The position numbers were made by a program, and so were the translations under genes. From Thermofilum sp. NZ13 (lineage in GTDB: Archaea; Thermoproteota; Thermoprotei; Thermofilales; Thermofilaceae), in the NCBI GenBank assembly GCA_002855745.1, contig NDWX01000016.1, positions 1 to 40,352 on the forward strand: 40,352 bases of DNA, read 5' to 3'. The notes under the pieces were generated by a model. That model saw only the letters and a program-made list of their open reading frames with translations. It was not told where the DNA came from and made no database searches. Position 1 is the stretch's first letter; each line of letters starts with the position of its first letter. Below are positions 13,584-24,429 of the stretch, in pieces.

Positions 13584-13623
13584 GGGGTGCTACACCGCAC
13601 TCCTACACAATTCATTGCCCTTC

Positions 13624-13636
13624 GTAGCAATGCTAC
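13624..13636. repeat. Left-end hairpin of E1
   Basis: GTAGC-AAT-GCTAC, a perfect 5-base-pair stem with a 3-base loop, one base inside the left boundary. Subterminal hairpins are what the HUH transposase of IS200/IS605 elements recognises. The copy in E2 keeps GTAGCAATG but has lost the second arm. Confidence 0.55.
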
Positions 13637-13734
13637 CTTTTAGCTTCTCCCTAGATTCTTCCCGTGTTCGATCCGTGTTTTCCCTTGCTTCCATCGGGCT
13701 GGAGAGGAATTGTGAGAGGGTGTTCGAGCAACAC

Positions 13735-13764
13735 CTATACGCCTCCTCCCTATACGCCTCCTCG
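13735..13764. repeat. 15-base tandem repeat, two units
   Basis: CTATACGCCTCCTCC at 13735-13749 is repeated at 13750-13764 with one change in the last base. E2 has no duplication at the equivalent place, so this arose in E1 after the copies separated. It lies just upstream of the winged-helix gene promoter. Confidence 0.8.
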
Positions 13765-13792
13765 GCTCCTATCGGCACAGCTTGTGTGAACG

Positions 13793-13800
13793 CTTATAAC
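13793..13800 (+). promoter_or_regulatory. TATA box of the E1 winged-helix gene
   Basis: CTTATAAC, about 23 bases before TTG 13820. The surrounding TGTGAACGCTTATAACCCC is preserved in E2 (to 23339) although the gene there is dead. Confidence 0.6.
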
Positions 13801-13819
13801 CCCTCTTTCGCGTTTAACC

Positions 13820-14164
13820 TTGATAGTCGAGGTAGAAAGGGAGGTCTGGGAGAGCGTGGCCAGGTGGCTCGAGCTGACCGGTCTCGCAAAAACGCTGTGG
13901 CGCCTCCGCGAGCCGAAGCCCCTCAGCAGGGCGTTCGGCACCCGAAACACCAGGCACATAGCTAGCGTCCTCGAGAGGCTGCGCTCAGCTGGCTTCGTCA
14001 GGGAGGCGGTGGTGGGCAACACCCGCTACGTCTACCTGACGGAGCGCGCCTGCGGCCTCCTCGCGTTGCTCGGCTACAGCAGCGAGGAGGTGGCGTGCGG
14101 CGATACCGCCTTGAGGCTCATCCGGCGCGGGGCCTCAGCTGCCTCCGCCACAGCATCACCGTAG
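13820..14164 (+). CDS. Winged-helix DNA-binding protein of element E1
   Basis: 114 residues with a helix-turn-helix and wing pattern. Helices cover about 10-30 and 48-60, with the RNTRHIASVLERLRSAGF segment as the likely recognition region. A beta wing VREAVVGNTRYVYLT (about 61-75) follows, as in ArsR or MarR-like archaeal regulators. The start is TTG at 13820; the E2 copy has ATG at the same codon, which supports it. A leaderless transcript is predicted. The protein precedes a palindrome, a promoter and a TnpB-like gene, so it may regulate the element. I cannot name a family with certainty. Confidence 0.72.
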   Translation: MIVEVEREVWESVARWLELTGLAKTLWRLREPKPLSRAFGTRNTRHIASVLERLRSAGFVREAVVGNTRYVYLTERACGLLALLGYSSEEVACGDTALRLIRRGASAASATASP

Positions 14165-14236
14165 CTACGTGGCTGCATATTCTGGCCTTCCTGACGTAGC
14201 CGTAGGCCCTGGAGAGGCAGCCAGCCTTCGACAAAA

Positions 14237-14253
14237 GTGTAACAATGTTATAC
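14237..14253. promoter_or_regulatory. 17-base palindrome, operator candidate
   Basis: GTGTAACA-A-TGTTATAC pairs arm to arm with a single mismatch. It sits about 25 bases upstream of the TATA box at 14276-14283, and between the winged-helix gene and the folded leader. This is the position expected for the binding site of a dimeric winged-helix protein. Confidence 0.5.
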
Positions 14254-14275
14254 TTTCGGCGTAATCATCGGAATG

Positions 14276-14283
14276 AATATTAA
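14276..14283 (+). promoter_or_regulatory. TATA box of the folded leader / TnpB-like transcript
   Basis: AATATTAA, predicting a start near 14305, exactly where the strongly paired region begins and 275 bases before the TnpB-like start codon. Confidence 0.5.
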
Positions 14284-14304
14284 CCCCCTCTGCGCAGGGA
14301 AGAA

Positions 14305-14566
14305 TGAGGCCCGCCGCCGAAGGCATTGGCCGGTGAAGGGGTGAGCCGGCTTCAGCGGCGCGGGCCAGGGTGCTTCCCCGAGAAAACTGGCGCCCCGCTG
14401 CGAGGCGCCTGCACTCTCGGGGAAAAGAAAGTGGGCGGGAGGGGCAAAGCAGCTCGAATCATGTCAGCGGGCCCCGGGCACCTAGGCTGCACCGCCTCCA
14501 GCGCGCTAGTGTTTAGGGGGGAGTGGGGGCGGATGGGGGCCGCGGCTCACACCGGTCCCCCAGTAA
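14305..14566 (+). ncRNA. Strongly folded leader RNA or ncRNA of E1
   Basis: Helix 1 pairs 14308-14319 with 14356-14366 (11 pairs, one bulged C) and encloses GCCGG/CCGGC (14329-14333 with 14346-14350). Helix 2 pairs 14374-14383 with 14415-14424 (10 pairs). After a symmetric 5x5 loop, GGCGCC 14389-14394 pairs with 14404-14409 around a 9-base loop. Later pairings join GGCGG near 14434 with CCGCC near 14492, GCAGC with GCTGC, and GGGGG near 14535 with CCCCC near 14559. The last hairpin ends just before the AAAAAGGGGTGA ribosome-binding region of the TnpB-like gene. No known RNA family was recognised. It may be a regulatory 5' leader or a separate RNA. Confidence 0.5.
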
Positions 14567-14580
14567 AAAGGGGTGATGGC

Positions 14581-16086
14581 ATGGGTGAGAAGAGTAACGG
14601 TAAGGGGAACGGCAAGGAATCCATCGATACCTACAGGGTTTGGCGGGTCAAGACCAACGGGGAGGTGAGGCAGAGTCTTCAGCGGCTCTACGTGAGGCTG
14701 TCGGGTGCAGTCAAGGAGGCGTGCAAGAGCCTTAAAGAGAAGCACGGCGACGCCTTCAGAAAGGAGCCAGAGAGATTCAGCAAAGAATTAATCGAGGAGG
14801 CCTCGAGGCTTGCTGGGTTGCCGAAGGGCTTCTTCTGGTACGCCGTGGAGATGTGGAAGACAGTTGCGGAAGCGAGGCGGAAGTCTAAGAGGCGCAACAG
14901 GTTCACCCCGCCACCAGTACCGCTACTCGTCAGGGTGGTTAACAATGGCGGTAGGCTTCACGGCGCCAGTAGCGCCGTTGCGGTGTTGGACACCTCCAGG
15001 GGCGAGCTCCGCGTTCCCAGCGCTGACATTACGATAAGGCTGAAGCCTTCATTGGTTAGAGCGGTGCTAGAGGACGTCCAGCGCTTCGAGGACGTTAAGC
15101 TTACGCTACAACTAACGGCTAAAGGCAGGCTACGCCTTGTTGCGCGCCGTGCGGTCAAGCAGGCGTGGTGGAACGGCAACGACAGACTCGCGGTGATAAC
15201 GTTGGACGTGAACTCGAATCACGGGCTCTACCTTCTTGCCTTCACGTTCGACGGCGAAGCCAGGCTCTTGGTGCAACGCGTGCTTAAGCCGCCCAACACC
15301 ACGTTGCTGAGGCTCCTCGCGGCCGTTATGCGTAGCTACTCTAAGGTTAAGATATGGGAGCAGGCCGCCAAAAGGTTTAGGGAAAGGAGGGACGTCGAAG
15401 AGTTGCAGAGAGAGGGGAGAGGCCCAGCGGTGGAGGAGGCCTTGAGGCTCGCTGAGAGGCTCAGGGCGAAGGTGAACATGACTCCGGAGCGCGCTGAGAG
15501 AATAACAAGACAGGCGTCGAGGAAAGTGAAGAAGCTCAACGACGATTGGATTAGAGGCGTGCTCAAGGAGATGAGAGAATTGATCAGGAAGCTCAGGGAC
15601 CAGGGCTATACCGTTGTAGTCATCGCGGACGTACCGCAAGCCGAGTCCCTGAATGGCTCACAGCTACAGCGAACATTGCTGAGAATCGCGAGGCGGCTGG
15701 AGAACCTAGTGCTCTACGAGGGCGCTAGGTGGTTCGAGCCGGAGAACAACGTCTCGGGCAGGCAGTGTCCCAGGTGCGGAACCTGGGGCGTAGAGGTAAG
15801 GAGGAGGTACTACCGCTGCCCCAAGTGCGGCTTGGAGTGGACTAGGGACTGGGCAGCGTGCTACAACGCCGCGAAGCTCTTCCTAAAGGCCTGCAGAGCA
15901 GAAAAGCACCTCGAAGCACTGCAGAGCTGGCTCAGTCAGCACCCTAGAGCCCCGACCCACGGCACCAGAGAAAGGCCAGCAGGCCCCGGCCCCAGTTCCC
16001 GGCACGGCCCCACGGCCGCCCGCCGGGTGCCGCGCGCGGCGCGAGGAGGGTATGTGCCCGCGGCGACGCGGGCTGAAGGCCGCTAG
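14581..16086 (+). CDS. TnpB-like RuvC protein with zinc ribbon, RuvC-II Glu replaced
   Basis: 501 residues related to TnpB/OrfB of IS200/IS605 elements, the RNA-guided nucleases ancestral to Cas12. RuvC-I is ITLDVNSNHG with Asp209. RuvC-II is VVVIADVPQAES, with Ala349 where TnpB has Glu; Asp350 and Glu355 are the nearest acids. The zinc ribbon is CPRCG (Cys396, Cys399) and CPKCG (Cys413, Cys416). RuvC-III is TRDWAACYNAAK with Asp423. A 70-residue Pro/Arg/Gly-rich tail is encoded by DNA that folds into hairpins. The ATG at 14581 follows GGGGTGA; the frame stays open upstream to 14326, but that part encodes the folded leader. It may be nuclease-dead or use a shifted acid. Confidence 0.85.
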   Translation: MGEKSNGKGNGKESIDTYRVWRVKTNGEVRQSLQRLYVRLSGAVKEACKSLKEKHGDAFRKEPERFSKELIEEASRLAGLPKGFFWYAVEMWKTVAEARRKSKRRNRFTPPPVPLLVRVVNNGGRLHGASSAVAVLDTSRGELRVPSADITIRLKPSLVRAVLEDVQRFEDVKLTLQLTAKGRLRLVARRAVKQAWWNGNDRLAVITLDVNSNHGLYLLAFTFDGEARLLVQRVLKPPNTTLLRLLAAVMRSYSKVKIWEQAAKRFRERRDVEELQREGRGPAVEEALRLAERLRAKVNMTPERAERITRQASRKVKKLNDDWIRGVLKEMRELIRKLRDQGYTVVVIADVPQAESLNGSQLQRTLLRIARRLENLVLYEGARWFEPENNVSGRQCPRCGTWGVEVRRRYYRCPKCGLEWTRDWAACYNAAKLFLKACRAEKHLEALQSWLSQHPRAPTHGTRERPAGPGPSSRHGPTAARRVPRAARGGYVPAATRAEGR

Positions 16087-16164
16087 AATGCGGCCACCCC
16101 GCAAGGGGACCCATGACCCTAGGGGGCCCTCGAATCAGTGAAGGGGGCAGATGAGGCCAGGCGC
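16056..16164 (+). ncRNA. Right-end RNA scaffold of E1 (omega/reRNA-like)
   Basis: Three hairpins follow one another. GCCCGCG/CGCGGGC (16056-16062 with 16067-16073) has a GCGA loop. GGCCGC/GCGGCC (16078-16083 with 16090-16095) has the TnpB-like stop codon in its loop. CCCC/GGGG (16097-16108) has a GCAA loop. A tail to CAGGCGC follows. The third hairpin and tail recur in E2 (24356-24427) at roughly three quarters identity. Active TnpB elements make their guide RNA from this overlap of gene end and right end, with the guide copied from the DNA just outside. Here that would begin at 16165. Expression is not shown. Confidence 0.55.
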
Positions 16165-16173
16165 GGTCGAGAC

Positions 16174-16185
16174 AAAGTTTTAAGT
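16174..16185 (+). promoter_or_regulatory. TATA box of the phosphoribosyltransferase gene
   Basis: AAAGTTTTAAGT, about 28 bases before GTG 16209. It begins only about 10 bases beyond the right end of E1, inside the stretch that an E1 guide would copy. Confidence 0.55.
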
Positions 16186-16208
16186 AACGTCGCCATGTAG
16201 AGGTTATC

Positions 16209-16883
16209 GTGCCCCGAGTTAACACGAAGCTGGTTAGCTGGGATGAGATCCTGAACTGGACTTATGAGCTCGCGCGCATGATAGAGAGGAGCGGTTGGAA
16301 GCCGGATGTTGTTGTTTCGATAGCGCGAGGGGGCTACGTGCCCGCACGCCTTCTCTGTGACTTCCTTGACGTAAACGATCTGGTCAGTGTCCAGGTTCTT
16401 CACTGGGGCAGGGCCGCAGAGATCACCGCTGTAGCCCATGTGAAGTACGGGTTTGAGGCCGATTTAAAGGGTAAGAGGGTTTTGCTAGTAGACGACATAT
16501 GCGATACCGGGGACTCTATCATCGTGGCCCGCGAGCATATAGAAAGAAAGTACTCGCCCGCGGAGCTGAGAGTGGCCGTAATGCAGTGGATCAGCAGCGT
16601 GGCTAAGATCAAGCCGGACTACTATGTCGACGAGGTTAAAGAGTGGGTATGGTACCAGTATCCCTGGACGCGTGCGGAGGACACCACTAACTTCTTCGAG
16701 AAAATAATCTCCGAAAGTACTAAATCCGGAAAAACCGAGTGGACATACAACGAGCTCGTAGAGGCTTTCAAGGATTGGTACGGGATAGATGTCGGGGAAC
16801 GGTACTACAGACTCGCACTCGAGAGACTTGCTCGAAGCGGCAGGCTGGTCGTGGAGGCAGACAGGATAAAGGTTATTCGATGA
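16209..16883 (+). CDS. Purine phosphoribosyltransferase with C-terminal winged-helix extension
   Basis: Salvages a purine base (hypoxanthine, guanine or xanthine) with PRPP to make the nucleotide. The PRPP loop is VLLVDDICDTGDS (about 95-107) and the N-terminal pyrophosphate region is SIARGGYVPARLL (about 37-49), as in archaeal XGPRT-like enzymes. The type-I core ends near residue 160. The last 60 residues (TEWTYNELVEAF.DWYG... RLARSGRLVVEADRIKVIR) look like a winged helix, unusual for a plain salvage enzyme. The GTG at 16209 gives a leaderless start. The stop overlaps the next start as ATGA, so both are co-transcribed. Exact base specificity is not readable. Confidence 0.85.
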   Translation: MPRVNTKLVSWDEILNWTYELARMIERSGWKPDVVVSIARGGYVPARLLCDFLDVNDLVSVQVLHWGRAAEITAVAHVKYGFEADLKGKRVLLVDDICDTGDSIIVAREHIERKYSPAELRVAVMQWISSVAKIKPDYYVDEVKEWVWYQYPWTRAEDTTNFFEKIISESTKSGKTEWTYNELVEAFKDWYGIDVGERYYRLALERLARSGRLVVEADRIKVIR

Positions 16884-23143: not shown

Positions 23144-23352
23144 AGCTCTTTCTTCGTATATTTTAAGACCCACGTAGCAATGGCGCTTTTTCAGTTTTTC
23201 CCTTGTCTCCTCCCGTGTCCGGCCCGCGCATTCCCTGTACCATGAAGGCTTGGAGAGGAGGTTGTGGGAGGGGGTTCGAGCAAAGCCTTCGCGGCTACTC
23301 TCCTACCGGTCATAGCATCTGTGAACGCTTATAACCCCCCTAGCGCTTAGCC

Positions 23353-23557
23353 ATGATTGTCGGGTTTAGTGGGGAGGTGTGGGAGAGTGCGGCAAGGTGG
23401 CTTGAGCTCACTGGCCTCGTTAGGACGCTGTGGCGCCTAAGGGAGCTGAAGCCGCTCAGCAAGGCCTTCGCCACGAGGAACACCAGGCACACCGCATAGG
23501 GGCTGGAGAGGTAGCGTCGCACGGGCTTCGTGAAAGGGGCGTTGGTCGGCAATGGCG
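23353..23557 (+). pseudogene. Winged-helix gene remnant of E2
   Basis: ATG 23353 begins a sequence matching the E1 regulator: EVWES.ARWLELTGL, then TLWRLRE.KPLS.AF.TRNTRH. It is interrupted by TAG after 48 codons and again 5 codons later. The frame continues through VGN and then runs straight into the TnpB-like remnant, so the wing and C-terminus are gone. Confidence 0.85.
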
Positions 23558-24356
23558 AGATATTGCACGGCGCAATCAATGCCCTTGTGGTGCTCGACGC
23601 CTCGAGGGGGCGAGTTCTGCGTTCCGAGTGCCGGCATCTCGATGAGGCTGAAGTCCCCGCTGGCCAGGACTGTGCTCGAGGACTTGGAGCGATTCGACAG
23701 CATTAAGCTCACGTTGAAGCTCACTGCAAGGGGGTTGAGGCTAGTGGCGCACCGCGTGGTTAAGCCTCCGAATACGACTCTGCTGAGGCTCCTTGCGGCC
23801 ATTATGACCAGCTACTCCGAGTTGGGTAAATGGAATGGAGCCTTCCAGAGGTTCAAGGAAGAGAGGCATCGAAGAGCTGCAGAGAACAGGCTACGCTGTA
23901 GAGGAGGCGCTGAGGATCACTAAGAGGCTGAGAGCGAAGGTGATCCTGATGCCGGAGCGCGCCGAGAGGGTTGCGAGTCAGGCGTCGAGGAAGGTTCAAA
24001 GGGTGAACGACGATTGGATTAGAGGCGTGCTCCGGGAGCTACGGAACCTGGTCAGGAGGCGGAGGGGCCAGGGCTACACCGTCGTAATTGTAGCAGATGT
24101 GCTCCGGGCAGGGAGCCTAGGGGAGCAAAGCTACGGCGACCCCTGTTGATGGTCGCGGAGAGACTTGAGAAACTAGCACTCTATGATGGAGCGAGGCGGT
24201 TCCAGCCGCACGGCAATTTCTCTTGGAAGCAGTGCCCCGTTTGCGGAGCATGTGGGGTAGAGCTGGGGAAGCGGTGGTAGCGCTTCCCCAGCTGCAACAT
24301 AACTCACAGCAGAGACTGGGAGCCTGCGTTAACGCGGCGAAGCTCTTTCTAAAAAG
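23558..24356 (+). pseudogene. TnpB-like gene remnant of E2
   Basis: It starts at the equivalent of E1 residue about 124 (LHGA...VVLDASRG) and shifts frame near 23608, near 23870 and again near 24115. The RuvC-I segment with its Asp is deleted: HRVVK joins PPNTTLLRLLAA directly. RuvC-II reads VVIVADVLRAGS, again Ala-Asp where TnpB has Glu-Asp. The zinc ribbon begins CPVCG, then has a stop after GKRW, and the last motif is degraded to THSRDW. A functional product is impossible. Confidence 0.85.
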
Positions 24357-24429
24357 CCCCCAAAAGGGGATCCATGACCCCGCTAGAGGGCTCTCAGAAA
24401 AGTGAGGAGGGCGGATGAGACAGGCGCAG

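Follow-up and report, generated by a model that had tools for sequence, protein, structure and literature searches.

Elements of the IS1341 type contain tnpB only, with no transposase gene in the element, while the so-called TldR proteins are nuclease-dead, TnpB-derived repressors. In Fanzor proteins and some TnpB proteins the RuvC glutamate is relocated, being found in an arrangement E-six residues-C with a cysteine of the zinc ribbon (PMC10711439). Here we describe E1, a TnpB-type element located in a 40,352-nucleotide stretch (referred to as the window, always at its full length) of Thermofilum sp. NZ13 contig NDWX01000016.1. E1 is confirmed to be a real mobile-element copy, spanning window positions 13623-16166, which encodes a winged helix-turn-helix (wHTH) protein and a TnpB-like protein with an RNA leader between them (Table 1). 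The element is of the TnpB type and has multiplied in one Thermofilales species; E1 is a reduced copy specific to its strain, and this heat-loving archaeon holds many old copies. Judged from its sequence, the E1 leader is related to the pre-16S rRNA leader of the host. The presence of a ribosomal leader core before several TnpB lineages is unexpected for a specialist, and suggests that ribosomal signals of the host may have been borrowed by the element for its own expression.

Table 1. Features of E1 and of the second copy, E2, in window coordinates.
Feature	Position	Strand	Basis or remark
Left end, with tip palindrome GTAGC-AAT-GCTAC at 13624-13636	13623..13730	+	30 left-end matches
GCACA..TGTG palindromic site, followed by a TATA-like stretch, wHTH promoter region (putative function)	13775..13788	.	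Similar in L140, L128, L099, L090
Winged-helix open reading frame (ORF), 114 aa, TTG start	13820..14164	+	ATG of L140, L090, L128 is ATA here
Antisense SWIM zinc-finger gene remnant, fuller in other copies	14127..14252	-	Copy comparison
Operator-like palindrome GTGTAAC-AAT-GTTATAC, which matches that of the left tip	14237..14253	.	Motif search
Leader stem I, placed with respect to the core as in 16S rRNA leaders	14308..14366	+	Predicted folds
Leader core hairpin, common to pre-16S rRNA leaders	14374..14424	+	Pattern and DNA similarity
TnpB-like gene, ATG start; residues past ~455 extend into the right-end RNA region	14581..16086	+	Pfam, fold, alignment
Right end and putative guide-RNA (reRNA) scaffold; the guide would be the flank beginning at 16167	16025..16166	+	End matches, fold, G061 junction
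E2, a degenerate second copy with left end, wHTH, pieces of TnpB and a partial right end	23173..24427	+	Present at the same place in G061

The leader core and the pre-16S rRNA leader

The genome to which the window belongs (G000; 1.88 Mb, 33 contigs, 98.94% complete) was compared with the complete genome of a same-species strain (G061) and with those of relatives up to the level of class (81 genomes). Used as a DNA query, the leader of another copy, L140, returned six matches in G004 and one in G005, two of which lie directly before a 16S rRNA gene (G004 C1:1507095 and G005 C1:980041). An exact two-strand pattern of the leader core was found at 23 places in only four of the 81 genomes, i.e., G000 (13), G061 (3), G004 (6) and G005 (1), and the same pattern written backwards at none. 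One core in each of these four genomes represents the rRNA leader, situated 58-60 nt before the 16S 5' motif, and Rfam confirms the 16S after the core in G000 and G004.

There are thus 19 exact cores outside the rRNA leaders, of which six in G000 lie too close to contig ends and 13 are assessable. A TnpB-like ORF follows 12 of these 13 (six of six in G000, two of two in G061 and four of five in G004), one of the G004 ORFs (1574233-1575708) being recognised only by its N-terminal likeness. The genes preceded by a core represent three lineages in two species: the TnpB1 clade, to which the E1 gene belongs, the more distant TnpB2 family, and a canonical OrfB_IS605 type (PF01385, 58 bits, L185). 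The sole core without a TnpB-like ORF downstream is that of L183 (G004 C1:73461-73506, minus strand).

The upper stem of the core is of type GGCGCC in G000 and G061 and of type GGGGC in G004 and G005, in elements and rRNA leaders alike, and a non-rRNA copy on contig C15 of G000 contains a 54-nt core identical to that of the G000 rRNA leader. In the predicted folds of the rRNA leader and of most other copies, stem I is joined to the core hairpin by a short linker, the stem I sequences being wholly different; the leaders of L278 and L279 are predicted to fold otherwise. Among the related rows of the core alignment, the upper stem contains 10 double-change cells against a shuffled mean of 2.9, and its covariation score is 0.087 against 0.024, values reached in none of 500 shuffles in either case. 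The initial annotation had described the leader as strongly folded, yet the folding energy of 14290-14439 is not beyond chance (z -1.64, with 12 of 200 shuffles as stable), and what sets the leader apart is a core conserved in other copies and in rRNA leaders. At gathering scores, Rfam returned no match in the window, L140, L099 or L135.

A pseudoknot between GUGC and GCAC in the leader core was also considered and was not retained; by eye, the G005 sequence keeps this pairing incompletely. Three further loci near contig ends of G000 (L275, L278 and L279, on C15, C29 and C30) possess cores without a wHTH gene and have in common a different promoter-like stretch, and perhaps represent a third element type that was fragmented by the assembly.

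Ends, distribution and composition of the element

Comparison of the window with loci of its own genome yielded 30 left-end matches, 17 of which begin at 13623/13624. Of the 20 matches to the right end, 16 finish at 16166-16169; this clustering bears out the homology-defined ends that had been proposed for E1. The TnpB protein has 42 matches in G000, consisting of 20 TnpB1 copies and members of the TnpB2 family, while the wHTH protein has 51, some of which are pieces of a single copy. Across 61 genomes (the own genome and 60 relatives) some TnpB match occurs in 28, the nearest relatives being those of G002, G004, G011 and G013 at 28-46% identity. A single-sequence wHTH search of these 61 genomes identified G000 and one weak place in G013 (E 2.7e-4), a genome of the same family, while a wHTH alignment search matched two of the 81 genomes of the class, i.e., G000 and the conspecific G061. 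In scans of viral contigs, built on short patterns, no relative of TnpB or of the wHTH protein was confirmed. An own-species TnpB alignment confirmed none among genome contigs, in a scan from which the own species was possibly left out, while a TnpB alignment led by G002 and other relatives identified five loci there, all in Thermofilales archaeon RSNS8.

Fuller copies of the element contain, in order, the left end, an antisense ORF resembling a ribbon-helix-helix (RHH) gene, the wHTH gene, an antisense SWIM gene or its remnant and leader, the TnpB gene and the right end. One subtype, E1 included, carries the SWIM remnant together with the rRNA-leader-like RNA, while the other has an antisense SWIM-like gene after the wHTH gene. 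Six leader-type copies with both flanks (L099, L134, L135, L140, L142 and L143) have a leader longer than that of E1 by ~690-720 bp. The antisense ORF between left end and wHTH gene, present in seven loci (L096, L101, L132, L133, L140, L146 and L249), looks like an RHH protein on a reading of its sequence, and none was found in E1. The SWIM-like finger (CxC..CxH) scored 15.3 bits against PF04434 in L188, below the cut-off of 19.6, and L244 gave no PF04434 match. Homologues of the SWIM gene occur in 39 of the 61 genomes (own included), mostly one per genome and also where the wHTH gene is absent, for example as a 127-aa ORF in G005, and it may therefore be a captured host gene.

The pairing of the wHTH and TnpB genes was assessed on the retrieved loci, counting TnpB1 pieces of at least 90 bp and wHTH pieces of at least 75 bp, with smaller pieces among the 51 G000 wHTH matches and the 25 matches of the alignment search excluded, and with three of the 20 TnpB1 copies and eight wHTH copies at G000 contig ends set aside. 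A same-strand wHTH gene lies within 2.6 kb upstream of 12 of the 17 assessable TnpB1 copies in G000 and of eight of ten in G061, while L092 and L103 were scored as lacking it although their upstream DNA holds remnants of the wHTH region. Pairing by chance was rejected, the total of 20 of 27 comparing with a chance level of roughly 3.5% for a genome of 1.88 Mb with 51 wHTH matches. Viewed from the other side, the 50 assessable wHTH copies are followed by TnpB1 (20), TnpB2 (4), the right end only (5) or none of these (21). The pairing is therefore real, not obligatory, and seen in this species only so far. The initial annotation was thus right in placing wHTH, palindrome, leader and TnpB in one mobile unit, an association that recurs, but the stable three-part cassette that it envisaged is not supported by these counts; E2, for which it had likewise assumed an origin as regulator plus TnpB, holds remnants of both genes. 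It had also held that the pairing would be chance if related genomes carried the TnpB-like gene alone and the wHTH gene elsewhere, a condition of which one half applies. TnpB relatives do occur in G002, G004, G011 and G013, but no wHTH gene was found elsewhere in these genomes by the alignment search, the weak single-sequence match in G013 apart. Three of the TnpB relatives of G013 (L121, L122 and L124) have a mutually alike open stretch before the likely start, which may be read-through of an RNA leader.

The TnpB-like protein and the right end

The TnpB-like protein matches the zinc ribbon family Cas12f1-like_TNB (PF07282) with 31.9 bits against a cut-off of 26.3, and scores 9.9 bits against the NCBIfam TnpB model, the cut-off of which is 100. 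The predicted model of TnpB1 (predicted template modelling score, pTM, 0.67; mean predicted local distance difference test score, pLDDT, 72) exhibits a TnpB/Cas12f-like fold over most of its length, and aligns with TnpB 8h1j with a Z of 12.9, a root-mean-square deviation of 5.8 and 12% identity over 296 aligned residues; absence from Foldseek or VIA-align lists was not counted as evidence. The median ratio of non-synonymous to synonymous substitution rates (dN/dS) is 0.26 for the 21 of 22 TnpB1 copies that are unbroken, i.e., without stops, and all 210 pairs, which are not independent, lie below 1.

Every in-frame TnpB1 copy has, with rare changes, a RuvC motif II of the form (A/V)D(V/I)PxAESL, from which the canonical glutamate is absent, so that the description as an altered TnpB is correct for the sequence. 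Residues D209, D350 and D423 are invariant in nine diverse sequences (own genome and relatives up to class level), while E355 varies; TnpB1 thus departs from the RuvC D-E-D catalytic set, D350 being the invariant acid of motif II. In a profile comparison by hhalign, the glutamate of four canonical TnpB proteins falls on E355 with a gap intervening, while the predicted strand 344-350 ends at D350, favouring the latter as the motif II acid. The equivalent of the canonical glutamate is uncertain, and the protein is therefore called TnpB-like rather than active TnpB. A nuclease-dead TnpB1 is not indicated by these residues. A relocated, Fanzor-like glutamate was ruled out, as N389 occupies that place in TnpB1; two G004 TnpB proteins do fit the relocated-glutamate pattern.

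The right end is conserved across 21 aligned rows (21 of 29 right ends, with L114 and seven of the second subtype excluded), and the predicted fold of 16025-16166 has a z of -2.14, with 5 of 200 shuffles as stable; a search of Rfam at E up to 1 returned no match. The flank at 16167-16190 holds the TATA-like promoter stretch of a gene at 16209, which we take from its motif to encode a phosphoribosyltransferase, and the insertion may have an effect on this gene in cis.

The winged-helix protein and the palindromes

The wHTH protein reached no cut-off of the protein family models. Its median dN/dS is 0.30 among the 19 of 28 copies without stops, with all 171 non-independent pairs below 1. Within the window, RTARCAATGYTAY with at most one mismatch is found only at the operator-like palindrome and at the left tip, giving four matches on both strands against 0.28 expected, a number reached in none of 100 shuffles. 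Among the 23 core copies, AACnnnGTTATAC is located 132-134 nt upstream of the leader core in all ten with a wHTH gene and in none of the 13 without one (four rRNA leaders, four others in G000 and five in G004).

Insertion and mobilisation

In G061 the DNA flanking E1 is collinear with the window at 95-97% identity, with E2 present and E1 absent, and the comparison fixes the right junction of E1 exactly at 16166/16167. A filled site in G061 (L248), compared with its empty counterpart in G000 (L194), is flanked by repeats of CCTTATATGCA with one mismatch, representing an 11-bp duplication, and L242 has an exact 11-bp flanking duplication. Both L242 and L248 reach a flank-repeat score of at least 8, as did none of 2000 random pairs drawn from the window only. 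In 19 of 20 matches the first two bases past the right end are CC (15) or TC (4); in L242 and L248 these bases are part of the duplication, and they may reflect a target preference.

At an E of 0.001, neither a Y1 transposase domain (PF01797) nor a serine recombinase domain (PF00239) was detected in the own genome (G061 not included), while control searches with the two models were positive in 5 and 10 of 14 genomes, respectively. The two strains also differ in a stretch of ~6.8 kb with a TnpB1 copy in L247 (G061 C1:31000-47000), of which only a right-end remnant is present in L105 (G000 C31). In addition, L102 (at the start of G000 C30) and L246 (G061) are one element, the TnpB gene of which has stops and frame breaks in G000 and is unbroken in G061, and its decay is therefore recent.

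Proposed mechanism and alternative explanations

The best explanation as a whole, in which we place tentative and somewhat less than even confidence, is that E1 is a reduced mobile copy which combines wHTH autoregulation, an rRNA-type leader, a D-D-D TnpB and mobilisation in trans. The wHTH protein (or the RHH-like protein) would bind both palindromes, that of the left tip and that ahead of the leader, thereby repressing transcription of leader and TnpB and marking the left end. In rRNA synthesis and in the elements alike, the leader core would act within the nascent RNA to prevent termination or to recruit processing, and would let the polymerase complete a long, GC-rich untranslated transcript including the right-end RNA. 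TnpB, with a D-D-D instead of a D-E-D RuvC centre, would bind this right-end RNA with the flanking DNA as guide, and the RNA-bound protein would favour persistence of the element, which would itself be moved in trans by a separate enzyme. A wider, rather doubtful formulation is that TnpB elements of this hyperthermophile genus recruited the host pre-16S leader RNA in front of no fewer than three TnpB lineages, belonging to two species, that rRNA-specific elongation or processing makes both TnpB and its guide RNA, and that in one species an element-borne wHTH protein binds a palindrome of left tip and leader, thus tying expression to mobility.

Several results weigh against this explanation. 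The core lies upstream of only 8 of 30 TnpB1 copies, and most copies would therefore be expressed by another route. Two of five covariation measures of its upper stem do not exceed the shuffles: double-change pairs number 2 against 1.6 (294 of 500 shuffles), and the count of additional pair types is 4 against 3.8 (326 of 500). Seven double-change cells remain even at a slide of -3; the lower stem of the core is invariant because the copies were chosen by exact pattern. The ten palindrome-bearing leaders probably share descent from one composite and are not independent, so that the palindrome-wHTH association is suggestive only. Only one of 37 predicted right-end pairs (21 rows) has a double change; covariation of the conserved right end is thus weak, and that the guide-RNA-like scaffold initially seen at the end of the TnpB gene yields a guide RNA is likely only by analogy. 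The E1 site (window 13612-16166) is occupied in G061 by 114 unrelated bases, and E1 itself displays no duplication because the target differs on the left between the strains. Among 15 complete copies, 13 lack a duplication, the 11-bp ones being confined to L242 and L248. Finally, the inserted copy L248 has an internally deleted wHTH gene and a frameshifted TnpB gene, so that neither would be needed in cis, with mobilisation in trans, unless this decay came after insertion.

The role given to the core would be different if it were an H/ACA-type guide RNA of the rRNA leader that was copied into the elements and acts on RNA modification rather than transcription. H/ACA RNAs place the AAA ~15 nt after the upper stem, and the core fits this shape, with a lower stem, an internal loop, an upper stem and an AAA ~15 nt past it; weak matches to Pab160 (22.9 bits, E1) and HgcG (17.9 bits, G004 rRNA leader) point the same way. 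However, the curated cut-offs are 47.4 and 77, far above these scores, other families matched equally weakly, and among the rRNA loci scanned (tRNAs not included) the 16S-containing L138 and L186 hold no loop-complementary site with at most one mismatch, the three overlapping matches of L182 being situated 4-6 kb before the 16S. A modification guide is improbable. The composite itself might, alternatively, be an accident of nested insertion, in which the SWIM gene of a wHTH-SWIM element received a leader-TnpB element that had a left-end-like tip of its own (GTAACAATGTTAT), so that the palindromes would be left-end relics and the wHTH protein would regulate nothing here. The SWIM gene is indeed interrupted in the same zone across leader-type copies, the palindrome is close to the start of the inserted segment, and leader cores without a wHTH gene exist (four in G000, five in G004). 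By eye, however, the likeness of the two palindrome sites barely exceeds the palindrome itself, the wHTH gene remains under constraint (dN/dS), and the palindrome is absent from these nine element leaders without a wHTH gene, all of which leaves such an accident somewhat unlikely.

With regard to the protein, the initial annotation had brought up TldR, and TnpB1 could be a nuclease-dead, TldR-like RNA-guided repressor, with the promoter region of the downstream gene as the guide of E1. An A or V precedes the motif II aspartate in every in-frame copy, and the E1 flank from 16167 contains the TATA-like stretch ahead of the gene at 16209. Yet the three acids are invariant across the nine relatives, as expected if metal binding is kept, and the guide would be each copy's own flank rather than a fixed promoter; this reading is not supported and appears quite unlikely.

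If the leader works as proposed in the mechanism above, the existence in archaea of rRNA anti-termination or of another dedicated rRNA-leader signal would become directly testable, because nature provides one and the same short core both in rRNA leaders and, in varied contexts, in many copies of the elements. The means by which TnpB elements may achieve expression of their RNA would then include the capture of a host rRNA signal, and in the D-D-D clade the extent to which a RuvC centre tolerates change can readily be tested.

Comparison with known systems

In the open-licence literature, no report was found of TnpB together with a SWIM-domain protein, or of TnpB elements with rRNA leaders. E1 resembles the TnpB elements of the IS200/IS605, IS607 and IS1341 types in its TNB zinc ribbon, its TnpB-like fold, a gene that runs into a structured right end and the absence of a transposase gene. 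Unlike the TnpB of these elements, that of E1 has a motif II with D in place of E and an NCBIfam TnpB score far below the cut-off; the family differs further in its extra wHTH, SWIM and RHH-like ORFs, in an own genome without a Y1 or serine recombinase domain match, and in the 11-bp duplications at two of 15 complete copies. With TldR it has in common a TnpB homologue with an altered RuvC motif II, while in contrast to TldR it retains three invariant acids, is a multi-copy mobile element and has a guide that is not fixed. Like the Fanzor and relocated-glutamate TnpB proteins (PMC10711439), TnpB1 departs from the canonical RuvC-II glutamate, but N389 stands at the place of the relocated residue, and D350, with which a predicted strand ends, is the invariant acid. 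With bacterial rRNA leader anti-termination (boxA/boxB/boxC), finally, the leader core shares the character of an rRNA-leader RNA signal that could act on elongation, although it is archaeal, of another sequence, and here of a putative function.

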